A DNA stretch of 64,000 nucleotides, from the NCBI GenBank assembly GCA_905181595.1, contig CAJIYI010000001.1:773938-837937 (forward strand), read 5' to 3'. Each line of letters starts with the position of its first letter. Position 1 is the stretch's first letter. Source of the stretch: an uncultured SAR86 cluster bacterium. Lineage in GTDB: Bacteria; Pseudomonadota; Gammaproteobacteria; Magnimaribacterales; D2472. The notes under the pieces are model-generated. The model saw only the letters and a program-made list of their open reading frames with translations. It searched no databases and was not told the origin of the DNA. This document shows positions 42,500 through 55,958 of the stretch, in pieces. The translations under genes were made by a program, and so were the position numbers.

Positions 42500-44125
42500 A
42501 TGGAAAGAGAAGTAATGGAATACGATGTAGTTATCGTAGGTGGAGGTCCATCCGGTCTAAGTGCAGCAATCAAACTTGCTCAGCTAGCAAAAGAGAATGA
42601 TAAGCCACTTGAGATATGTTTACTTGAAAAAGGCTCAGAAATTGGTGCTCATATTCTTTCGGGAAATGTTTTTCAACCAACAGCATTAAACGAACTAATA
42701 CCCGATTGGAAAGATAAAGGCTGCCCTCTTACAGTTCCCGTAAAAAAAGATAAGTTAATGTTTTTATTTGAAAAATTTGGTTTATCAATTCCATCTTTTG
42801 TCATGCCGCCAATGAATAATCATGGCAATTATGTTGCGAGCTTAGCCAATCTTTGTAGATGGCTGGCAACCCAAGCCGAAGAGCTTGGAATAGAAATATT
42901 CCCTGGCTTCCCTGCTAGTAAAATTCTTTATGAAAACGATAAGGTGGTCGGTGTAAGAACCGGAGACATGGGTGTTAGCCTGGAAGGCGAGCAAAAACCT
43001 GGATTTGAAGCAGGCATAGATATCAAGGCGAAATATACTATATTTGGTGAAGGCTGCAGAGGACACTTGGGCAAAGAACTTATTGCAAAATATGAATTGG
43101 ATAAAGGCAAAGACCCTCAGCATTATGGCATTGGTTTCAAGGAAGTCTGGAAGATTAAAGACGAGATGCACGAAGAAGGACTCGTTATTCATACCAATGG
43201 ATGGCCAAGCGCCAAGAACACTCCTGCAGGCTCGTACCTTTACCATGCAGATAACAATGAAGTCTATTTAGGTTACGTGGTGCCATTGGATTATGAAAAT
43301 CCTTACCTGAGCCCTTTTGATGAATTCCAAACATGGAAAACTCATCCGTCTATTCGCAAATACCTAGAAGGTGGAGAAAGATTAACCTACGGCGCACGAG
43401 CTCTTATCAAAGGTGGTCTTCAATCACTCCCAAGCATGGAATTTCCAGGCGGAGTTCTTGTTGGTGATAATGCAGGAACTTTAGTTTTCTCAAAAATTAA
43501 AGGCTCTCATACTGCAATGAAATCTGGAATGCTGGCAGCTGAAACAATATTCAAAAACATAGATACAGAAGGCGATCTAAAATTTGATGAGTTGGTTCAA
43601 TCAAGCTGGATTCAAACTGAGCTCTATAAGTCCAGAAACTTTGGTCCTATGTTTCATAAATTTGGTGCTTTAATTGGCGCAGCGTTTAATGCTATTGATC
43701 AATTAATATTTAGAGGCAAACTGCCCTTCACGCTTCGTCACACAACACCCGATTATGCTTGCATGAAGCCAGCAGCAGATATGCCCAAAATTGAGTATCC
43801 GAAACCTGATGGAAAAGTTAGCTTTGATAAGCTCAGCTCGGTTTTTCTTTCAAATACATATCATGAAGAAGATCAGCCGTGCCATTTAACACTTAAAGAC
43901 TCTTCAATTCCTATTCTACAAAATCTTCCTATGTACGACGAGCCTGCGCAACGATATTGTCCAGCTGGTGTCTATGAGGTAGTCGAAAGCGATGACGGAC
44001 CAAAATTTGTAATCAACGGTCAGAATTGTGTGCATTGTAAAACTTGTGATATTAAAGACCCTTCTCAAAACATTACCTGGGTTACACCAGAGGGCACCGG
44101 CGGACCTAATTACCCGAATATGTAA
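42500..44125 (+). CDS. Electron transfer flavoprotein-ubiquinone oxidoreductase
   Basis: A 541-residue ETF-QO that moves electrons from reduced ETF into the quinone pool at the inner membrane. The FAD motif GGGPSGLSAA is near residue 15, GDNAGTLVFSKIKGSHTA is conserved, and the C-terminal 4Fe-4S domain holds YCPAGVYEV and NCVHCKTCDIKDP. Its stop overlaps the next start by one base. Divergence from etfBA puts the whole ETF chain in one control region. Confidence 0.95.
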   Translation: MEREVMEYDVVIVGGGPSGLSAAIKLAQLAKENDKPLEICLLEKGSEIGAHILSGNVFQPTALNELIPDWKDKGCPLTVPVKKDKLMFLFEKFGLSIPSFVMPPMNNHGNYVASLANLCRWLATQAEELGIEIFPGFPASKILYENDKVVGVRTGDMGVSLEGEQKPGFEAGIDIKAKYTIFGEGCRGHLGKELIAKYELDKGKDPQHYGIGFKEVWKIKDEMHEEGLVIHTNGWPSAKNTPAGSYLYHADNNEVYLGYVVPLDYENPYLSPFDEFQTWKTHPSIRKYLEGGERLTYGARALIKGGLQSLPSMEFPGGVLVGDNAGTLVFSKIKGSHTAMKSGMLAAETIFKNIDTEGDLKFDELVQSSWIQTELYKSRNFGPMFHKFGALIGAAFNAIDQLIFRGKLPFTLRHTTPDYACMKPAADMPKIEYPKPDGKVSFDKLSSVFLSNTYHEEDQPCHLTLKDSSIPILQNLPMYDEPAQRYCPAGVYEVVESDDGPKFVINGQNCVHCKTCDIKDPSQNITWVTPEGTGGPNYPNM

Positions 44126-45862
44126 TGAAAAGCATTAAATACTTAGTATTGATTCCATTGATGGTTGGTTGCTCTCAGCCATCAACAGAGACCGCCTTTG
44201 AAGAGCTAATGGATTCTGAGTGGTCTAAGATAGTTTCTGATAATCCTGTCTATGCTTCAAGCATGGGCGATCTAAGATTTAATACCGAATGGTCTGATAA
44301 TTCTATCAAAAGAATCAGGGAGGACCACCAGCATGATCAGTCTGTTCTTGATGCCTTAAATGCAATGGACATTGATGATCTCAATGAGCTAAATACAACC
44401 AACTATAAATTATTTATAAAGCAATATGAGAATGCTGTAGAAAGTTTTCAGTATCAGACTTACCTGATGCCGTTTAGTCATCGTGGAGGCATTCAACTAG
44501 AACACGAAACAGTCAACATCTTGCCTCTAAGAAATGCGCAACATTATTTAGATTGGATTGAGCGACTTAGCAAACTTGAAGTGCTGATAGATGCGGATAT
44601 AGAAAAAGCTCAAAAAGGAATTGAGACTGGAACAGTTCCTCCTCGCTTTTTGATGCAGAAAGTTTTTGAACAAATTAAGTTACAAGCCTTCGTGTCACCA
44701 GAAAATAGTCCTTTCTTTAGAGCATTCGAGTCTATGGATAGGTCGATTAGCCAAGAAGATATTATTGTCATTCAAGCGAAAGCAAAAAATGTAATTGCGA
44801 GCACGGTCATACCTGCATATCTGAAACTCCATAAGTTTTTTGAAGATTCCTATCTTCCAGCGTGCAGAACTTCTATCGGAATAAAAGATATCAATAACGG
44901 TAAGAAGTATTATGAGTATCTGGCTAGAAAATTTACAACCACCACTTTAACTCCTCAAGAAATTCATAATATTGGTCTTAGCGAAGTAGCTCGAATTAAG
45001 ACAGAAATGGAAAGCTATTATTAAGGAAGTTGAATGGGAAGGAACTTTCAAAGGTTTTTTAGACGACCTCAGATCAAACCCTAAATTTTACTATGAAACT
45101 TCTGAAGAGCTGTTTGAAGCATACCTAGCTACGTCTAAAAGAATAGATCCGGAATTAGTTAATATTTTTAAAGTGCTTCCCTCAATGCCTTATGGCTTAA
45201 AACCTATCCCAATAGAGAGTGCACCTGATACAACAACGGCATACTACCAAAGACCAGCAGCAGATGGATCAAGAGCAGGTTACTACTACGTGAATCTTTA
45301 TAGACCTGAAGTCAGACCTAAGTATGAAATTGAAGTATTGAGTGTTCATGAGGCAGTTCCTGGGCATCATCTACAAATAGCATTGGCCATGGAGCTAGAC
45401 CTACCAAACTTTAGGAAATATGGAGGAGTAACTGCCTTTGTCGAAGGCTGGGGCCTCTACAGTGAAAGTCTTGGTTACGACCTAGGTCTATACAAGGATC
45501 CTTACTCACAATTTGGTCAGCTCACCTATGATATGTGGAGAGCCATAAGATTGGTTGTTGACACAGGCATGCATTACTTTGATTGGAGCAGGCAAGATGC
45601 TATCAATTATTTTTTAGATAACTCTGCCAAAACTAAACAAGATGTCATGAATGAGGTGGATAGATATATCAATTGGCCCGGACAAGCCTTGGCATACAAA
45701 ATTGGCCAGTTAAAAATTCAAGAACTTAAAGATCGCGCAAAAAGTGAACTCGGAGAGAACTTTGATATCAAAGATTTCCATCATGAGGTGCTCAAAAGAG
45801 GTGCCCTGCCCCTAGACATTTTAGAGCAGTACATCGACCAGTGGATTGCTCAGACAAAATAA
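44125..45862 (+). pseudogene. DUF885 lipoprotein (peptidase-like) with one frame break
   Basis: Two frames together make a DUF885 protein of about 578 residues. The N terminus is a lipoprotein signal with the lipobox MVGC. The first frame stops at 45024; the second carries the metal motif SVHEAVPGHHLQ. One surplus A at 45011-45013 causes the break; without it the sequence reads EMEAIIKEVEWEGTF into the second part. These proteins are annotated as M32/M3-like metal peptidases with poorly known substrates. The break may be sequence error or decay. Confidence 0.8.
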
Positions 45863-47006: not shown

Positions 47007-47981
47007 CTAAGATCCTACTATTTCCGGCTCAATCTCAAGATTAATTCCATAAAGGCCATGAACTTCATCCTGAATATCTTTTAAGAGTTCGATAACCTCT
47101 TTAAATACAGCGCCTCCCCTGTTGATCAAGACTAATGAGTGCTTTTCATAAAACCCAAGACTGGGAGGGATTTTAATCCCAGCCATTACCGTCTCAAGTA
47201 ACCTAGCTGCACTTAACTTTGTCTTCCCTTCTGGTAACTCCCAGCGATGACCTGATAGAAAATCTAAATCTATAGAGTCTGAATTAACAATAGGATTTTT
47301 AAAGATGCTGCCTACATTTGGTATTTTATCTGGAGATGGCAGTTTAGATTCTCTAATAGATTGAATAGCGCTTGAAAGTTGTCTTGAAGAAAGAGAATCA
47401 TGATTGATACTCTCTTGCTCTAGAAATTGAAGTAAGGATGGATAAGAAATATTGGGATTAAAGACTTTGCTAAATCGAAATTGAACACTCAAAATTAAAT
47501 AAGCCTTACTCTGAAAGATAGACTGCCTGTATGAGAATTTACACTCAGCCTTGGAAAGAATTTCAACTTGCTTGGTTGAGAAGTTATAACAAGTAACGCT
47601 TTCTATCACCGAAGAAACTTCAACCCCATAAGCTCCAATATTTTGAACTGGTGCAGCGCCTACCGATCCTGGAATCAAAGTAAGGTTTTCTATGCCAAAC
47701 AGTTTGTTATCTATGCAGTAACTAATTAATTTATCCCAAGAAAGCCCAGCTCCAACTGAAGTAATGTCTTCAGAGATTTGCTCAATCTCACGCATAGACA
47801 CTTTAATAATAGTACCGTCATAGAACTTGTCTACAATCATATTGGTCGCTGACCCAAGAACTAAATAGCTATCGAGCTGCAGCTCACGAAGACTGAGAGC
47901 GTCTTCAAGTGATTCAATTGAGATAATTTGCTTAGCTGCAACCTCTAACTGAAAGGCGTTGTCTATCAATAAGTTAGTCAT
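47007..47981 (-). CDS. murB: UDP-N-acetylenolpyruvoylglucosamine reductase
   Basis: A 324-residue flavoenzyme making UDP-MurNAc for peptidoglycan. I choose ATG 47981 (MTNLLIDNAFQLEV), which overlaps the kdsB stop by 8 bp; the longer frame to 48029 adds an unrelated leader. Motifs are VLGSATNMIVDKFYDG, LIPGSVGAAPVQNIGAYG, the catalytic Ser in PNVGSIFKNPIV, and the C-terminal Glu region LEIEPEIVG. It is the type I MurB of gammaproteobacteria. Confidence 0.93.
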   Translation of the reverse strand: MTNLLIDNAFQLEVAAKQIISIESLEDALSLRELQLDSYLVLGSATNMIVDKFYDGTIIKVSMREIEQISEDITSVGAGLSWDKLISYCIDNKLFGIENLTLIPGSVGAAPVQNIGAYGVEVSSVIESVTCYNFSTKQVEILSKAECKFSYRQSIFQSKAYLILSVQFRFSKVFNPNISYPSLLQFLEQESINHDSLSSRQLSSAIQSIRESKLPSPDKIPNVGSIFKNPIVNSDSIDLDFLSGHRWELPEGKTKLSAARLLETVMAGIKIPPSLGFYEKHSLVLINRGGAVFKEVIELLKDIQDEVHGLYGINLEIEPEIVGS

Positions 47982-48711
47982 GAGTTTTAGAAAACATAAT
48001 AGCTCTTTCAAGATCAGCAGGCGTATCAATTCCTATTGGGGGCTCACATGCATAGTCCTCTACAAATATATTGTAACCATGATCTAAAAACCTAAGTTGC
48101 TCTAGTTTTTCCTGCAATTCATTGGATGTGGGCTGTAAAGCAGATAACTCTTGAAGAGTCTTGTTCTGGTATGCATATATACCTAAATGTTTTAAATAAT
48201 TATCGTAACTTGAAGTGAACTCATTAGGTATTACAGACCTGGAAAAATACATGGCCCGCTTAGATAGGGAGCGAACTACTTTAACTTCGTTTGGACTCTT
48301 GATAGCTTCAGAATCTATCAACGGCACACATGCTGTTGCAATAGTAAATTCATTGGATAAATTAGCGGTTAGAGAATTGATAATCTCAAGAGGCATAAAG
48401 GGCTCATCGCCTTGAAGATTAAGGATTCTTGTATCAGCTGATAAGCCTAATATATTGGCAGCCTCGGCAATTCTATCCAGCCCTGAAATATGATCCTCTT
48501 TGGTCATAATTACGGAAGCGCCTAAAGATTCAGCGTGATCTCTTATAGCGTCATTGTCAGTTGCTATGAATGTAGACTTGGCTCTAGAGGATTGAGCTAA
48601 TTCAAATACCCTAGCCAGCAAAGATTTACCATTAATCTCCAAAAGTGGCTTGTTTGGAAGGCGGGACGATCCAGCTCTCGCGGGAACGATAATTACAAAT
48701 TCATCAGCCAT
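47974..48711 (-). CDS. kdsB: CMP-Kdo synthetase
   Basis: A 245-residue 3-deoxy-manno-octulosonate cytidylyltransferase activating Kdo for lipopolysaccharide. Motifs are VIIVPARAGSSRLPNKPL, FIATDNDAI, LNLQGDEPFMP and LGIYAYQNKTL. It overlaps the Trm112-like gene by 8 bp and murB by 8 bp. Confidence 0.95.
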   Translation of the reverse strand: MADEFVIIVPARAGSSRLPNKPLLEINGKSLLARVFELAQSSRAKSTFIATDNDAIRDHAESLGASVIMTKEDHISGLDRIAEAANILGLSADTRILNLQGDEPFMPLEIINSLTANLSNEFTIATACVPLIDSEAIKSPNEVKVVRSLSKRAMYFSRSVIPNEFTSSYDNYLKHLGIYAYQNKTLQELSALQPTSNELQEKLEQLRFLDHGYNIFVEDYACEPPIGIDTPADLERAIMFSKTHD

Positions 48712-48868
48712 CTAAAGAAAAGATACTTTCTTCAAGCATGTGTGGGATATCTTCTTTGATGGGATAACCAATGTTGCACTGAGAACATTTAAGATAATCA
48801 CTTTCTTCGGTTAAGTCTGATTTGCACCTGATACACGCCATTAGTTTTAGTATTTCTTTATCAATCAT
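48704..48868 (-). CDS. Trm112/YcaR-like zinc-ribbon small protein
   Basis: A 54-residue ORF read from the minus strand. It has two cysteine pairs, MACIRCKSDL and LKCSQCNIGYPI, followed by EDIPHMLEES, which matches the YcaR/Trm112 family. It overlaps the lpxK part upstream and kdsB downstream by 8 bp each. The order lpxK, ycaR, kdsB is conserved in gammaproteobacteria. Its role in bacteria is not settled. Confidence 0.88.
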   Translation of the reverse strand: MIDKEILKLMACIRCKSDLTEESDYLKCSQCNIGYPIKEDIPHMLEESIFSLDG

Positions 48869-51614
48869 TTATTTTTTCCTCTAGTCGATCTATGAACTGG
48901 GATTCTATTTTTGCTTCGATACTAAGATACCAAATTTTAGAATTATTAAAATGCTTACATTTTGCGGCATCTTTTTCAGTCATCAAGATTGGGAGGTGAT
49001 CAAGGAAATATAAATCTCTTTTGTTGTATTTATGATGATCAGGAAAAGGACTTTTATCAAATTCGAATCCTAGTCTTGAGAGCAAATCAAAGAATCTATT
49101 TGGATTTCCAACACCAGCAACTGCATGAACTTGTTTATGCATTGGCCAATTCTCTACCGAATATCGCTTTCCAGAATTTAAGTGGACAAATTTTGCTGGA
49201 TTAAGGGTCATAAGAATTTCGTCTGCTTCAGTCGGGCCTCCGTTGTTAACAATAAAGTCTACCTCTTTTAGTCTTCCCTTGGGCTCGCGCAAAGGGCCTG
49301 CTGGAAATGCCATACCATTACCAAGCCTTCTTGCTCCATCTATAACAGCAATTTCAACCTTTCTGTCCATTTTATAGTGCTGCAGGCCATCATCCGAGAT
49401 AATAACATCACAATCATATTTCTCTTGAAGAGTTTGAGCGGCTCTGGATCGGTCTTTATCAATAAAAAATGGTATTTGCAGCTTAGATAAAAGCTGGGCC
49501 TCATCACCTGTTTGCTTAAAAGTTGTTTCTTTGTTGACCTCAAGAGTTCCAGAAAATTTTCCGCCATAGCCTCGACTCACTAAGCCAGGTTTGTAGCCTC
49601 TCTCTTTAAGTTCTGATGCAATGTGTTTTACAAGTGGAGTTTTGCCTGTGCCGCCCATGGTAATATTTCCCACCACGACAATTGGTACATCTGAATTCCA
49701 AACCTTAGATGGGTTTTTTGCGTATGAATTCTTTCTCCACCTAACCGCTGCAGAAAAAATGAATGTAAAAGGCGATAAAAGATATAGCCAAAAACTCTTG
49801 TTGTACCAGGCATCTATTAAGTAGCCCTGCTGAGCAGGCTCTTCTGTAAAGGAGGGTAAGTATTCTTGAGATTTTGATTTTGTTGAATGAGTGCTGCTTG
49901 CCTCTCCATCGCTAAATTTGTTTTGATATAGACTTTTATAAATGCCCTCTTGTTCCAATAAATCCTGATGCGTACCAAACTCTGCAACAGTTCCCTGATC
50001 AAGAACTAAAATTTTATTTGCGTTTTCAATGGTTGAAAGTCTATGAGCAATAACAATAGTTGTTCTATTGTTGATTAATTTTTCAACTGCTTCTTGAACT
50101 ATTAGCTCAGACTCATTGTCCAAGGCTGAAGTTGCTTCATCTAAAATAATAATTGGAGAGTCCTTGTAAAAAGCTCTTGCTATAGCAATGCGCTGTCTTT
50201 GCCCGCCTGATAACAGAACACCATCATCGCCTATCTCAGATTTATAGCCCTCGGGTAATTTTTCTATAAATTCAAGGCAGCCAGAGATCTCAGCAGCTTG
50301 TTTCAGTTTGTCCTCATCAATATCAGTTTCACCGTAAGCAATATTTCTTTCTATTGTGTCGTTAAAAAGTGTTGGTGATTGATTGACTATTGAGATCGAT
50401 TCTCGAAGGAAGCTAAGCTTATAATCCTTAATGCTGACTCCATCAATAGAAATATCACCAGTAAAATCTGAGTAAAATCTTGAGAGCAAATTAGCAATAG
50501 TCGATTTTCCAGAGCCAGATTTACCGACAATGGCGACTGTCTCATTTTGTGCAATAGAAAAATTTAGACTATTTAAAACTAGTTCTTTTGGGGTGTATGA
50601 GAAAGTAACATCATTGAATTCTATGTTTCCAGTAATCGCTGACTCAATATCACCTGAATCTTCCTCTTCCTTTGAGTCAAGCTGATCAAATATTTCAATG
50701 GCCGCTGCTAAGCCTTTTTGAATAACAGCATTTATGTTGGAAAGCTGTCTAATTGGTTTTGCCATCAGTCCTGCTGCTGTAATAAATGCTACAAAGTTTT
50801 CAGCACTAAGCTCAATACCTAACTGAGCACCCAGGGCAAAATAAGCCACGATTGATAGGGATACAGAAACAAGCAACTGAATTATAGGAGTTGCTAAATT
50901 AGAAGTTGCTTCAAGCTTTAAATTTTGATTTTTATTTGATGCATTGGCCTTTAAAAATCGTTCGGTCTCATACGACTCAGCATTAAATGATTTTATTTCA
51001 AGATTGCCATCAACTGCCTCAGAAGCTAGATGAGTGACATCACCCATAGCTGTTTGAATAGTTTTAGCAAGCTTTCTTAGTCTTTTTCCAGCCACGTAAA
51101 CAATTAATGCAATAAAGGGCGTAGTAATTAATAAAAGTAGCGTTAACTTCCAGTTTAGCGAAAGCATATAAATCATTAGCCCAATCAATAGGAAGCCTTC
51201 GCGAACAAAGGTTTTGATTGCATTTGAGGCGGCTCCGGAAACTTGAGTTGTTGTAAAGGTAATCCGGTTAATTAACTGTCCTGATTGGTTTTGATCAAAA
51301 TACATTTTCGGTAGATTGATTAACTTAGTAAATAGCTCTGACCTTAAATCATGAACAATTCCAAAACCTACCCTAGACATAAAATAGTTTCCGATAAAAA
51401 AACCTATTCCTCGCCCAAGAGCAATAAATATCAAAGCTAGAACCAAGTAAATACTAAAATCTGTTTTATCAGAATTAATAAATTCAATAATGCGTCTTAT
51501 CCACTCAACGGCTGCAATATCCGCTGCTGCAAACATCAAAAATCCAATAATGCTAACAAAAAAGGAAAACTTAAACCTAAAGGTATACGAAAATAATCTT
51601 CTTAAAGGACTCAT
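48861..51614 (-). CDS. MsbA-LpxK fusion: lipid A flippase joined to lipid A 4'-kinase
   Basis: A single 917-residue frame. Residues 1 to ~575 are a full MsbA ABC exporter: six membrane helices, Walker A VGKSGSGKST, signature LSGGQRQRIAIARA, Walker B IIILDEATSALD and H-loop IVIAHRLSTI. Residues ~576-598 are a polar Ser/Lys linker. Residues ~599-917 are a full-length LpxK, including its N-terminal membrane-proximal helix, Walker A GGTGKTPLV (654-662) and DDGLQHYKMDR (741). In other gammaproteobacteria these are separate adjacent genes. No stop or start is seen at the junction (about 49820-49890). Confidence 0.92.
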   Translation of the reverse strand: MSPLRRLFSYTFRFKFSFFVSIIGFLMFAAADIAAVEWIRRIIEFINSDKTDFSIYLVLALIFIALGRGIGFFIGNYFMSRVGFGIVHDLRSELFTKLINLPKMYFDQNQSGQLINRITFTTTQVSGAASNAIKTFVREGFLLIGLMIYMLSLNWKLTLLLLITTPFIALIVYVAGKRLRKLAKTIQTAMGDVTHLASEAVDGNLEIKSFNAESYETERFLKANASNKNQNLKLEATSNLATPIIQLLVSVSLSIVAYFALGAQLGIELSAENFVAFITAAGLMAKPIRQLSNINAVIQKGLAAAIEIFDQLDSKEEEDSGDIESAITGNIEFNDVTFSYTPKELVLNSLNFSIAQNETVAIVGKSGSGKSTIANLLSRFYSDFTGDISIDGVSIKDYKLSFLRESISIVNQSPTLFNDTIERNIAYGETDIDEDKLKQAAEISGCLEFIEKLPEGYKSEIGDDGVLLSGGQRQRIAIARAFYKDSPIIILDEATSALDNESELIVQEAVEKLINNRTTIVIAHRLSTIENANKILVLDQGTVAEFGTHQDLLEQEGIYKSLYQNKFSDGEASSTHSTKSKSQEYLPSFTEEPAQQGYLIDAWYNKSFWLYLLSPFTFIFSAAVRWRKNSYAKNPSKVWNSDVPIVVVGNITMGGTGKTPLVKHIASELKERGYKPGLVSRGYGGKFSGTLEVNKETTFKQTGDEAQLLSKLQIPFFIDKDRSRAAQTLQEKYDCDVIISDDGLQHYKMDRKVEIAVIDGARRLGNGMAFPAGPLREPKGRLKEVDFIVNNGGPTEADEILMTLNPAKFVHLNSGKRYSVENWPMHKQVHAVAGVGNPNRFFDLLSRLGFEFDKSPFPDHHKYNKRDLYFLDHLPILMTEKDAAKCKHFNNSKIWYLSIEAKIESQFIDRLEEKIND

Positions 51615-52021
51615 GACTGATCAGTATAAGTTTTAATTTGAAGGTTTTGAAATCCAGCGCTCTGCAGCTCATCCATCAGAGTAATAACCCACTCATGAAA
51701 AGCCTTGTTTTCGATTGATAAGATGATTGTCTCTGAGGTATCAAAACTAGCTTTGATTCCAATGATGACCTCTTCAATCTTGGAGATATTAAATTCTTGA
51801 TTATTCACAATCAAAATACCGGTATCTAAAAGAATAATATTTCTGTCAGCATTAATAGAGCTTGATGAAAATGATTCCGTTGAAGGAAGGTCAAGAGTTA
51901 GATATTGATTTGTTTCAATTTTAGAGGTGACCACAAAAAAAATAACTAACAGAAAGACTATGTCGATTAAAGGCGTGATCTCGATACTCAGGGCTCGCTC
52001 TTTATTATTAAAAAATTTCAT
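51611..52021 (-). CDS. exbD: ExbD/TolR family protein
   Basis: A 136-residue protein with one N-terminal membrane helix carrying the proton-path aspartate ([18 protein letters not shown]) and a periplasmic domain. With ExbB it forms a proton-driven motor. It overlaps exbB and the msbA-lpxK gene by 4 bp each. No tonB is nearby, so the partner is unknown. Confidence 0.9.
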
Positions 52022-52620
52022 TTTTGATATATAAAATCTAAAAATAATGATGTATTGGCCTGAAGAATAGACATTAAATTTAAAGTTTTTTGTTCAAAAT
52101 ATCTGTAAAAAACAATTGCTGGCACGGCAATGATTAGACCAAAAGCGGTAGTAATTAATGCTTCAGAGATACCGGCTGCAAGAAGATCTGCATTAGCAGA
52201 TCCATTGATGTCAATGTTACCAAACACGGTAATCATCCCAACGACTGTTCCAAGTAAACCTAACAAAGGGCTAATGCTGGCAATTGTGCTCAGCATAGAG
52301 AGGTTTCTTTCTAAGATTAGATTAATTTCTGCTGCTTTTTCCTCAGCTTTTGTTTCAATAAAGTCTCTAGATTCAGATTTATATTGATAGCAATAAGTGA
52401 GAAGCTCTCCCAACTGAGATGTAGCCGCGATCTCTTCTTGATTCTCAGCATGAAAAGCATTTTTATTAATAAGGTTCTGAACTTGCCTTTGCAAACCCTT
52501 TGGGGCGACCAATCTTCTTTGTAGAAACCAAAGCCGCTCTATGACAATTGAAATTAATAGAATAGAGCACACCAATAAAGGCCATATGAACCATCCGCCT
52601 GAAATTAAAATATTATTCAT
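52018..52620 (-). CDS. exbB: ExbB/TolQ/MotA family proton channel protein
   Basis: A 200-residue protein with three membrane helices. The segments [20 protein letters not shown] and [19 protein letters not shown] are family signatures. It works with ExbD. The exbB-exbD-lpxK order resembles Pseudomonas. It overlaps lolD by 8 bp. Confidence 0.9.
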
Positions 52621-53299
52621 TGTCTATCCTATGTAACTTAGTATTTTCAATTTTATACACATCATCTAATTGCTTGGCATAATCCAAGTCATGAGTAGCA
52701 ACTATTATGCCCATATTAAGCTTTTTGGATAAATTTATTGTTAATTCTTGAATGATGGCTGCATTCTCATTATCTAAATTGCCAGTGGGCTCGTCCATCA
52801 AAAGAAAAGTAGGCTTATGTGCAACTGCCCTTGCGATAGCAGCTCTCTGTCTCTCTCCACCAGACAGCATAAATGGGTAGTGATCTTTAAGATGAGAAAT
52901 ACCAAGCTCTTCAAATATTGCAAGAATACTTTGATGGTTAGCGGCACGATCTTTTGACTGAAGAATTTGAAAGGTCAGCTCGCAATTTTCAAAAATGGTG
53001 AGATCCTCAAGCAAATAATGAAACTGATAAACAAAACCAAATAAACTTGATCTAAGTTGTGTGAACTGAGTTTTGTTATTTGCAGAAAGATTAATATCAT
53101 TAAAAAAAACTTTGCCTACTGAAGGAGTCTCTAGGCCTGCTAAAATTTGTAACAGAGTCGTTTTTCCACATCCAGATGATCCTATAATCGCAATCGATTG
53201 ACCTTCATCAAGCACCAAAGAGATATCTGCTAAAACATCAACTGTGTGCTGGGCACTAGCAAAACTCATTGAAATATTTTTAGCTTGAAGTTTATTCAT
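52613..53299 (-). CDS. lolD: Lipoprotein-releasing ABC transporter ATPase LolD
   Basis: A 228-residue ATPase. Walker A is [16 protein letters not shown], the LolD/MacB region is [13 protein letters not shown], the signature [14 protein letters not shown], and Walker [12 protein letters not shown]. It powers release of outer-membrane lipoproteins to LolA. It overlaps the lolC/E gene by 8 bp. Confidence 0.94.
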
Positions 53300-54530
53300 G
53301 ACGCAAAATAGTTACAGGGTTTAATTTAGCTGCTTTGTAAGCTGGGAAGAATGAAAACAATAAACTTAGAAAAATGCACGTCGCACTAATTTGAATTAAC
53401 TGTGAGGGTCTAAACTCATAAGGGAAGTAATTAATAAAGTAACTATCCATCAAGGCTCTATTAGTAAAGCTTTCAACAAAATGAATCGTAGAATCAATAT
53501 TGGGAGTAATGAGTAAGCCAAGAACCAAGCCAATAAAAATTCCTAGAAAACCAATAATCATTCCAAGGGTTAAAAATATCCCTATCAGCTGAGGATTGCT
53601 GCATCCCATGGTTTTTAAAATTGCAATTTCTCGCTCCTTTGATTTTACTGTCATGACTAGAGTTGAGAGAATGTTGAACGCTGCCACGGTAATGATAAGA
53701 AACAACATCAGGCTAATGAGCTTTTTCTCTAGTTGAATTGCCTGAAATAGAGTTCCATGGGTTCTTTGCCATGAGCTAAAGTAAAAGCCTTGGTCCTGCG
53801 GGAGATTCTCTTCAAGCAGACTGTAACCAATTTCATTTGCTTTAAATAAGTCTGAGGTTTTAATTCTAATGCCTTGAGTCTGATTGGGTGTGAGGTTAAG
53901 AAGATTTGCTGCGAGATCATGGTGAATCAACGCAAGGGATTGATCGAGCTCAGCTTTAAGCTCAAAAATACCGACAACCTTTAACGATAATGATCTAGGA
54001 AAAGATCCTAAAACTGATGATCTTAGGTTGGTAGTGGTAATAGAAACGCTATCTCCAATACTGACTCCCAAATACCTACTCAACCACCCTCCTATAACTA
54101 TGCCCTCTTTCGGACTTAATTGATCCAATGAACCAGCAAACATATACTCTGGAAGTATTGAAACTTCTTTTTCTATACTAGGTAATATTCCTGTAAGAAA
54201 AACTCCTCTTGCTCGATTGCCAAAGCTCATCAAGCCTTGAGTTTCTATATAGGGACTTGCTGCTTGGACTTCTGGTGCTTGAATTAGCCGAGCAATCGAA
54301 TCATCATAATTTTCTATGGACTCTTCGTTTTTAATAATGAGATGAGGAACTACTCCAAGAACTCTTGTTTGGAGCTCTCTTTCAAAACCATTCATAACAG
54401 ATAAAACAATTACCAATGCAGCTACGCCTAAAGCTAAGCCGGCAATAGCCATGATTGAAGTAAAAGACGCAAAGGCACCTTTTTTTGAGCGGAAATACTT
54501 GTAACCCAAGTAAATGGGCAGAGAAGTCAT
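53292..54530 (-). CDS. Lipoprotein-releasing permease, LolC/LolE (LolF-like) family
   Basis: A 412-residue MacB-fold permease with four membrane helices: one after YLGYKYFRSKKGAFASF and three at the C terminus, with KSKEREIAILKTMG before the third. The periplasmic domain lies at about residues 45-265. Only one LolC/E-type gene accompanies lolD, unlike E. coli lolCDE, so a LolF-type homodimer is likely. A second copy elsewhere cannot be excluded. Confidence 0.9.
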   Translation of the reverse strand: MTSLPIYLGYKYFRSKKGAFASFTSIMAIAGLALGVAALVIVLSVMNGFERELQTRVLGVVPHLIIKNEESIENYDDSIARLIQAPEVQAASPYIETQGLMSFGNRARGVFLTGILPSIEKEVSILPEYMFAGSLDQLSPKEGIVIGGWLSRYLGVSIGDSVSITTTNLRSSVLGSFPRSLSLKVVGIFELKAELDQSLALIHHDLAANLLNLTPNQTQGIRIKTSDLFKANEIGYSLLEENLPQDQGFYFSSWQRTHGTLFQAIQLEKKLISLMLFLIITVAAFNILSTLVMTVKSKEREIAILKTMGCSNPQLIGIFLTLGMIIGFLGIFIGLVLGLLITPNIDSTIHFVESFTNRALMDSYFINYFPYEFRPSQLIQISATCIFLSLLFSFFPAYKAAKLNPVTILRHE

Positions 54531-54532
54531 AG

Positions 54533-55958
54533 CTATTTAGCTATCTGCTTCAGAATTTTCTCTATATCGCCTGTATAGGGAGGTCTAATTGCAGCTATGA
54601 GCTTGTCGAATCTAGAGCCAATTTGTTTATACACTGCCCTGGGGTTGCTGAAGTTTTTAAAGCCTTCTTCGCCATGATAACTTCCAGTTCCTGATGGTCC
54701 AACGCCACCAAAAGGTATGTCCTCTTGCTGAATATGACCCAAAACATCATTTACGGTAACCCCACCAGAGGAAGTTCTATTTAAAACATGATTCTCCTCA
54801 CTCTGATCAGAGCCAAAATAATACAATCCAAGAGGTTTATCATTTTTATTTACGTATGAAATTGTTTCATTGATATCAGTAAATTCTTTAATTGGCAGTA
54901 ATGGCCCAAAGATCTCTTCTTGCATGATCTCCATATCATCACTTGGGTTCATTACAAGTGTAGGCGGAATTTTGAAGGCTTCTTGCTGAGAAAAATCTTC
55001 ATTGGCAGGATTAATCTCATCAATAGTTGCACCCTTTTCCTTTGCATCCTGAAGCAAGCCTTGAAGACGATCGTAATGTTTTTCGTTAATAATAGATGTG
55101 TAATCATCATTGTGCTTAAGGTCGGGATAAAATGAGGTAACCGCTGATTTCATTTCTGCTACAAGCTCATCTTTCTTGTCTGAGTGAACCATCACATAAT
55201 CAGGGGCTAGACAGATTTGACCAGCATTCATTGTCTTTCCTAAGCATAATTCTTTTTGCAGCTGTAACGCTCTCAGCTGTATTGCTTACAATCACAGGTG
55301 ATTTACCACCCAATTCTAGTGTGACAGGAACTAAATTTTCAGCAGCAGCTTTCATGATGTGTTTTGCCACAGCTCCACTGCCAGTATATAAAAGGTGATC
55401 AAATTTTAACTGCGTAAAGGACGCGCCAACATCTGGTCCACCTAACACAGTTGCAAACTCATGCTCATCAAAGGCTTTGTCGCAAAGTTCCTTTAAAAGG
55501 TTAGAAGTTTGCTCAGTATATTCACTGGGCTTATGCATCACTTGATTTCCGGCAGCAAAAATAGAAGATAAAGGTGCAAAAGTTAGGTATACAGGAAAAT
55601 TCCAAGGCGAGATCATTCCAACCGTGCCTAATGGCTGATAACTGACCTTAGCTTTAGCGCCAAGCAATCCTAATGGAAAATTAGGTTTTCTCTTGGAATC
55701 TGACATCCATCTTTTTAAATTCTTTTTAGCGTAATTGATGCCTGGAATAATAGTGTAGACATCGGTAGCCATAGACTGGTTTTTAGATCGAACACCAAAA
55801 TCTTCATTCAATGCATCAACAAACTTGTATCTGTTATCCATAATCAAAGCTTTCATTCTATCCAGCCTGTCTACCCTTAGCTCGTATGACGGAGCTCCCT
55901 CCTTGATAAAATGTGCTTGCTGTAAATCTAGTATTTCCTGCATGTTATTCGCTTCCAT
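54533..55958 (-). pseudogene. Coniferyl-aldehyde-type aldehyde dehydrogenase with one frame break
   Basis: Two frames together make a class 3-like aldehyde dehydrogenase of about 475 residues. The first (55958-55200) has the cofactor region PWNFPVYLTFAPL and catalytic Glu in LELGGKSPVI. The second (from about 55240 to 54533) has the catalytic Cys in NAGQICLAPDYV and SGTGSYHGEEGF. One surplus A at 55241 (CTT A GGA) breaks the frame; without it the chain reads LGKTMNAGQ. It oxidises aldehydes to acids. The gene may be decayed or the base a sequence error. Confidence 0.85.

Follow-up and report, generated by a model that had tools for sequence, protein, structure and literature searches.

We describe here a gene in which the lipid A flippase MsbA and the lipid A kinase LpxK are joined in one open reading frame. 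The gene lies on a stretch of 64,000 nucleotides from an uncultured SAR86 cluster bacterium (assembly GCA_905181595.1, contig CAJIYI010000001.1, positions 773,938 to 837,937), the whole of which is called the window below. It occupies positions 48861-51614 of the minus strand and codes for 917 amino acids (aa) plus a stop. The MsbA part takes residues 1-567 (49914-51614), its transmembrane domain followed by its nucleotide-binding domain (NBD); a linker takes residues 568-602 (49809-49913), and the LpxK part takes residues 603-917 (48864-49808), all on the same strand. An earlier note made from the letters of the window had claimed an in-frame fusion of MsbA and LpxK with both parts complete. 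This observation is confirmed, since one 917-aa frame passes the curated cut-offs for both proteins. Judged from sequence, the frame is a real and conserved fusion of two known proteins. At the junction the window sequence reads in a single frame, with neither a stop nor an internal start nearby. The genome to which the window belongs is 88% complete, with 1.41 Mb in 2 contigs, and a search of the whole of it gave the fused frame as the sole LpxK match and the sole ABC_membrane match.

The MsbA part matches TIGR02203 over residues 5-568 with 630.9 bits, above the curated cut-off of 602, and its score of 538.9 bits for the stricter MsbA model NF008381 (PRK11176) lies below the cut-off of 867. 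In Pfam, ABC_membrane is matched at residues 19-284 and ABC_tran at 347-496. The NBD carries the Walker A lysine K370, Q412, the LSGGQ signature at 468-472, E493 and H524, and the Walker A, Q-loop, signature, Walker B and H-loop residues are intact in all 42 fused sequences compared. The equivalent of R78, a residue of MsbA that coordinates one phosphoglucosamine according to the available text of PMC10945598, is likewise retained in 42 of 42. The equivalent of R148 is R in 31 sequences, K in 10 and Q in 1, and that of K299 is R in 41 and K in 1. Thus the part resembles known MsbA (TIGR02203; structures such as 3b5w and 5ttp) in being full length and over the cut-off, and in keeping the ATP-binding cassette (ABC) motifs and the lipid-phosphate residue R78; it differs in that its C-terminus runs on into a kinase. 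We regard it as a putative flippase of the lipid A core. The seven sequences from family f4 (L089-L095) differ from known MsbA in one further point, all of them having LSGGE in place of LSGGQ as the ABC signature.

The LpxK part matches PF02606 at residues 611-915 with 324 bits against a cut-off of 27, and the window protein scores 246.3 bits for TIGR00682, whose curated cut-off is 91.95. It contains a P-loop at residues 654-659, GDE at 703-705, DDGLQH at 741-746, DHH at 859-861 and EKD at 880-882. The catalytic residues given for Aquifex aeolicus LpxK in the accessible part of PMC6286764, K51, T52, E100, D138, D139 and H261, align to K658, T659, E705, D741, D742 and H860 of the window protein. 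Among 41 SAR86 sequences the P-loop is found in all, and the GDE, DDGLQH, DH and KDA motifs in 40; the remaining one, L105, comes from a contig that ends before them. An N-terminal helix attaches LpxK to the inner membrane on its cytoplasmic side. The earlier note had this helix included in the fusion, and an AlphaFold2 model of residues 560-917 agrees, placing it at about residues 608-633. In the review PMC6286764, as far as its text was available, the helix is described as amphipathic and required for activity. The same model has a mean predicted local distance difference test (pLDDT) score of 83.9 and shows the LpxK fold, with 4ehy as the best match at a template modelling score of 0.84 by target length. 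The likeness to known LpxK (TIGR00682, PF02606; structures 4ehx and 4lkv) thus covers the full length, the N-terminal helix, the P-loop and the GDE, DDGLQH and DH motifs. The difference is at the N-terminus, which is free in known LpxK and is here joined to MsbA. The part is a putative tetraacyldisaccharide 4'-kinase.

Is there any sign at the junction that LpxK could be made separately? The junction is without a stop in all 41 SAR86 sequences. The linker had been put at about 23 residues in the earlier note, a number that depends on where LpxK is taken to begin: counted from the conserved phenylalanine (F) close to the MsbA terminus up to the tryptophan (W) conserved in LpxK, it measures 35 residues in the window and 23-36 residues across the 41 sequences. 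In 31 of the 41, the linker from F to W holds no ATG, GTG or TTG; in 16, none is found from the F of MsbA to 30 codons beyond the W of LpxK; and in the window, codons 553 to 647 are free of all three in frame. Because most linkers examined lack a separate start codon for LpxK, the fusion is probably locked in. The linker frame also appears to be open more than expected by chance. All 23 linkers of SAR86 representatives are open, and for a single linker the median probability of staying free of stops when its nucleotides are shuffled is 0.055, although the representatives are related and these probabilities do not simply multiply. The other two frames of the same linkers contain a stop in 20 and 23 of them.

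The two halves of the linker evolve differently. In the window's genus (11 sequences), the ratio of nonsynonymous to synonymous polymorphism (pN/pS) is 0.72 for residues 567-583, where the most variable windows of the protein begin, and 0.14 for residues 584-602, near the value of 0.16 for the NBD. Genus g14 of family f2 repeats the pattern, with the linker half beside LpxK about as constrained as the NBD, and in f3, f4 and the wider f1 this constraint is absent. A conserved docking motif at residues 584-602, suggested by a ratio of nonsynonymous to synonymous substitution rates (dN/dS) of 0.04, was considered and dropped, for the pN there equals or exceeds that of 74% of 19-codon windows. The linker is polar with a predicted pLDDT under 50, and in the model of residues 560-917 the chain is disordered to residue 593, followed by helices at 595-604 and 608-633 and then by the LpxK fold. 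A full-length structure was also tried for placing the domains and was rejected, its LpxK part being too weak.

The earlier note took the fusion to be a local one. This does not hold: the fusion is found throughout the SAR86 order, named Magnimaribacterales in PMC11582366, the available text of which mentions neither MsbA nor LpxK. In a set of 60 genomes (the window's own and 59 relatives, from 18 genera and 4 families), 52 have LpxK, and in 50 of the 52 it lies in frames of 892-949 aa. In the two exceptions the gene meets the edge of a contig: G016 is cut by a contig end, and G056 has a fragment at the start of a contig. In a larger draw of 199 order genomes, 171 match the fusion profile at 1e-50. 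The 150 matches listed come from 150 distinct genomes, each as one frame of 707-966 aa across the junction. A second search took in the 21 order genomes with unlisted matches and 4 of the 28 that gave no match at 1e-50. The fusion of G521 is full length with one ambiguous residue in the linker, the frames of G482 and G495 span the junction, and that of G028 passes through the linker to the contig end. Adding these four to the 150 listed, one frame spans the junction in 154 of the 199 genomes, with all four families represented. One TGA was counted within the matched range of each of G040, G445, G486 and G437; read directly, these four and G521 have no stop between the NBD signature and the LpxK P-loop. 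As for the rest of the genomes searched again, six contain fragments ending at contig ends (G009, G432, G518, G493, G544 and G524), the match of G517 begins at base 4 of its contig and that of G056 near a contig start, and 12 gave weaker matches, like those from other ABC proteins. The order genomes examined showed no lpxK that was both intact and separate; they hold incomplete copies at contig edges and one copy broken by stops. On these sequences the SAR86 fusion is order-wide, and it is neither local nor recent. One locus stands apart, G483:C1:459225-461930, a SAR86 fusion locus broken by many stops and frame changes, possibly sequencing errors.

Does the fusion occur outside the order? The class and phylum figures are based on the best matches listed, and fusion counts outside the order are therefore lower bounds. 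The class draw contains 370 genomes, 5 from the order and 365 others. In these 365, at least 44 matches cover msbA and lpxK together in the same frame; 38 of them contain one or more stops and 6 contain none. The 38 with stops contain no hidden fusion with a stop at the end alone: LpxK is a separate short frame in 22, and in the 16 that were read the stop stands between the genes in every case. The six genomes that are stop-free among the matches listed are G137, G391, G305, G101, G227 and G118. In the first five there are no ambiguous bases and MsbA reads straight into LpxK; G118 (L062) was set aside as a fusion, having two N at the junction and one in the P-loop. Two other candidates failed, namely G397 (L064), a 950-aa frame with LpxK whose upstream part does not align as MsbA, and G225 (L065), a 687-aa frame without LSGGQ. 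Of the 397 genomes in the phylum draw, 21 match at the threshold used, and those stop-free among the matches listed are the window's genome (G000) and G137. Of 20 phylum matches counted as carrying stops, 16 were read, and a stop lies between the genes in all 16; G917 has MsbA alone, and G187 and G311 are covered by the class results.

The families of two of these genomes give a closer view. In the family of G137, 3 of 4 genomes are fused, with the junctions read. From the family of G391 a sample of 40 genomes was taken; in its genus 27 of 30 genomes are fused (25 full length and 2 partial including the junction), and the sequence of eight of these was read directly. No fusion was seen among the 8 genomes of the sister genus (the lpxK of one was unexamined and another had no match): in three, msbA and lpxK share a frame and are parted by a stop followed by a restart, and in three more lpxK is in another frame.

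How many times did the fusion arise? To this end a tree was built from 57 rows with 775 columns by a quick method with no bootstrap. Not included were L064, L033 and L157 (in the last two the genes are not immediate neighbours), 22 of the 41 SAR86 sequences, the further loci from the families of G391 and G137, and those 13 of the 30 class loci L032-L061 for which no MsbA frame was found in the flanks. (Another alignment, A2, made of MsbA-only rows, LpxK-only rows and the window, was dropped, for its LpxK rows appeared to be placed on the Walker region of MsbA.) One branch, with an SH-aLRT (Shimodaira-Hasegawa-like approximate likelihood ratio test) value of 95, separates the 20 SAR86 rows from all others. 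G101 is placed next to SAR86, a weakly supported position (76), and G137 next to G391 and G305 (84). The fused state needs 4 changes with L062 (G118) included, 3 without it, and 2 when the long-branch rows L188 and L189 are dropped as well; the starred branches of the tree alone force 2 changes. On this tree the fusion is seen to have arisen more than once, two origins being a firm minimum. Three or more separate origins are likely, because the families of G137 and G391 each include unfused members. The earlier note gave loss of a stop as the route. For SAR86 this is plausible because 38 of the 44 spanning class matches listed outside the order carry stops in what is otherwise the same frame, and because three genomes of the unfused sister genus of G391 have a stop and restart in frame.

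What could the fused protein do? MsbA works as a homodimer whose ATPase domains lie in the cytoplasm. The fusion would then be a bifunctional inner-membrane protein, in which LpxK is tethered by a flexible linker to the cytoplasmic C-terminus of the MsbA ATPase domain, and this joining of the C-terminus of MsbA to the N-terminus of LpxK is compatible with the membrane placement of both proteins. Translated as one uncleaved product, it would keep kinase and flippase in the same place, and the MsbA dimer would bring two kinases to each flippase. That each flippase half has one kinase, as the earlier note claimed, is implied by the sequence. The tether would fix MsbA and LpxK at 1:1, and the kinase, sitting on the inner leaflet by its N-terminal helix, would be held beside the transporter that exports its product after WaaA and LpxL have acted. 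We consider it probable, from the sequence, that the protein works as a single polypeptide with two LpxK per MsbA dimer and a fixed 1:1 ratio. In Escherichia coli the available text of PMC10328246 gives the operon ycaI-msbA-lpxK-ycaQ, which is alike in gene pair, order and shared transcription. The products there are two proteins, estimated in the accessible part of PMC4412817 at 432 LpxK and 206 MsbA per cell, whereas the fusion forces them to 1:1. In the pathway model of the same paper, LpxK becomes rate-limiting in E. coli once regulation is included.

Several points weigh against such a tethered protein. A possible start codon lies inside the linker in 10 of the 41 SAR86 sequences, and the fused chain may be cleaved within the linker. 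The first half of the linker evolves fast in the window's genus, and a rigid, specific arrangement is for this reason disfavoured. The full-length model is poor (mean pLDDT 61, the LpxK part with two rows) and predicts no contact between MsbA and LpxK. As to coverage, no junction was obtained from 45 of the 199 order genomes, and 4 of the 28 non-matching ones were re-examined. Finally, steps lie between the kinase and the flippase. WaaA (PF04413) and LpxL-family (PF03279) genes are each present in 39 of 41 order genomes, all of which except the window's own are at least 90% complete. The two genomes without either match are G058 and G445 (family f3; 91-92% complete); in several other order genomes waaA and the LpxL-family gene are close together, and a single gap could explain both absences.

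There is a further question of concern, whether the fusion is useful at all. A serious rival, to which we give somewhat less than an even chance, is that adjacent or overlapping msbA and lpxK genes were fused by chance, the start and ribosome site of lpxK then decayed, and the fusion was kept without any functional coupling since an essential kinase would be lost with any stop in the linker. The 31 linkers without a start codon and the largely unconserved first half of the linker are what this would predict. The genes are also tightly packed, the six other joints measured around the fusion overlapping by 4-8 nucleotides (nt), and with msbA and lpxK in the same frame and a stop between them in at least 38 of the 365 class genomes outside the order, fusion is one or a few mutations away. 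Yet those six joints in the window have stayed unfused, and the fusion has stayed in 7 of 12 SAR86 representatives where exbB-exbD was not found in the run. Nor can genome reduction alone be the explanation, because the fusion occurs outside the order in assemblies of 1.7-5.2 Mb, with a local guanine-plus-cytosine content of 46-68%, and is fixed in one genus. Both a benefit to the cell and a neutral state locked by the loss of the lpxK start are compatible with the sequence.

A stronger version of the tethered protein would make it a repeatedly evolved kinase-flippase machine, in which the tether links the control step of the pathway to export. Lipid A would then be completed and flipped in a single place on the membrane, to which WaaA and LpxL are recruited, and a small cell could keep lipid A synthesis in step with its transport and do without the separate regulation known in E. 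coli. We hold this to be unlikely. A little less likely again is channelling or gating of lipid A, which the earlier note had raised: the tethered kinase would pass its product towards MsbA, perhaps in a complex with WaaA and LpxL, or the state of the kinase would regulate flipping. The same pair is fused in several lineages, the R78 equivalent is kept in all 42 sequences compared, the linker half beside LpxK is constrained about as the NBD in two genera, and the rate-limiting place of LpxK in the E. coli model (PMC4412817, as available) would suit such a role. Against it, msbA and lpxK are neighbours in many genomes, which is enough to explain why it is this pair that fuses; the linker constraint fails in f3, f4 and the wider f1; and the full-length model, itself weak, predicts no contact between the parts. 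Moreover, direct hand-over is made less likely by the intervening addition of 3-deoxy-D-manno-oct-2-ulosonic acid (Kdo) by WaaA and late acylation by LpxL, whose families are present, and the idea found no direct support. A precursor that is cut in the linker to give separate MsbA and LpxK in the cell is quite improbable; the linker, being polar and predicted to be disordered, is a typical place for cutting, but its alignment shows no site conserved across the four families. An artefact of assembly or sequencing deserves almost no credence: although two nearby genes (DUF885 and aldehyde dehydrogenase) are apparently split by frameshifts in this assembly, the earlier note's worry that one assembly alone might carry the fusion is answered by the 154 of 199 order genomes and by the separate SAR86 record AG-313-D11 (L106), which carries the same fusion at 84% identity to the window protein and thus shows that it is no assembly slip.

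Why should the fusion matter? MsbA and LpxK are both essential in E. coli and both are considered drug targets. They are treated as separate proteins that act several steps apart, and the fusion shows that one chain is possible. The case of LpxK as a drug target is argued in the accessible part of PMC4412817. That an abundant marine order has kept the fusion throughout, and that other lineages have it too, raises the question whether the ratio of MsbA to LpxK, or their position, matters. It is also a natural construct for asking whether the copy number or placement of LpxK controls lipid A output, the point singled out by the E. coli model. The earlier note knew of no characterised example, and we likewise found no report of an MsbA-LpxK fusion in the literature searched, which lacked most subscription papers. 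The fusion is surprising to a specialist, though each part is of a known kind.

The fusion sits within a run of genes on the minus strand in the order lolC-lolD-exbB-exbD-fusion-small ORF-kdsB-murB, where ORF is an open reading frame. The exbD-like gene, the small ORF and kdsB are the flanks that the earlier note had named. Upstream, an exbD/tolR-like gene (51611-52021) overlaps the start of the fusion by 4 nt and is preceded by an exbB/tolQ-like gene (52018-52620), both scoring under curated cut-offs. Before them come an ABC ATPase with an ABC_tran match (52613-53299) and a permease with FtsX and MacB_PCD matches (53292-54530), which from context we take to be lolD-like and lolC-like, respectively. 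Downstream, an ORF of 54 aa with two CxxC pairs (48704-48868) overlaps the end of the fusion by 8 nt; it has no Pfam match at 1e-5 and is presumably Trm112/YcaR-like. It is followed by kdsB (47974-48711), above the cut-off of TIGR00466, and murB (47007-48029). The listed TTG start of murB gives an overlap of 56 nt with kdsB, and an alternative ATG at 47981 would leave an overlap of 8 nt, as at other joints. The order lolC, lolD, fusion, kdsB, murB is kept in 12 of 12 SAR86 representatives. The exbB-exbD pair was not found between lolD and the fusion in seven of them (L073, L069, L070, L081, L085, L093 and L090), which belong to f2, f4 and part of f3 and keep the rest of the run.

The two genes apparently split in this assembly lie on either side of the run. 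A DUF885 gene at 44125-45862 on the plus strand is divided into two frames (profile positions 1-252 and 310-532); the most likely cause is a frameshift, either genuine or introduced by sequencing. An aldehyde dehydrogenase (Aldedh) gene at 54533-55958 on the minus strand lies in two overlapping frames (profile positions 51-258 and 264-461), which is likely a frameshift as well.

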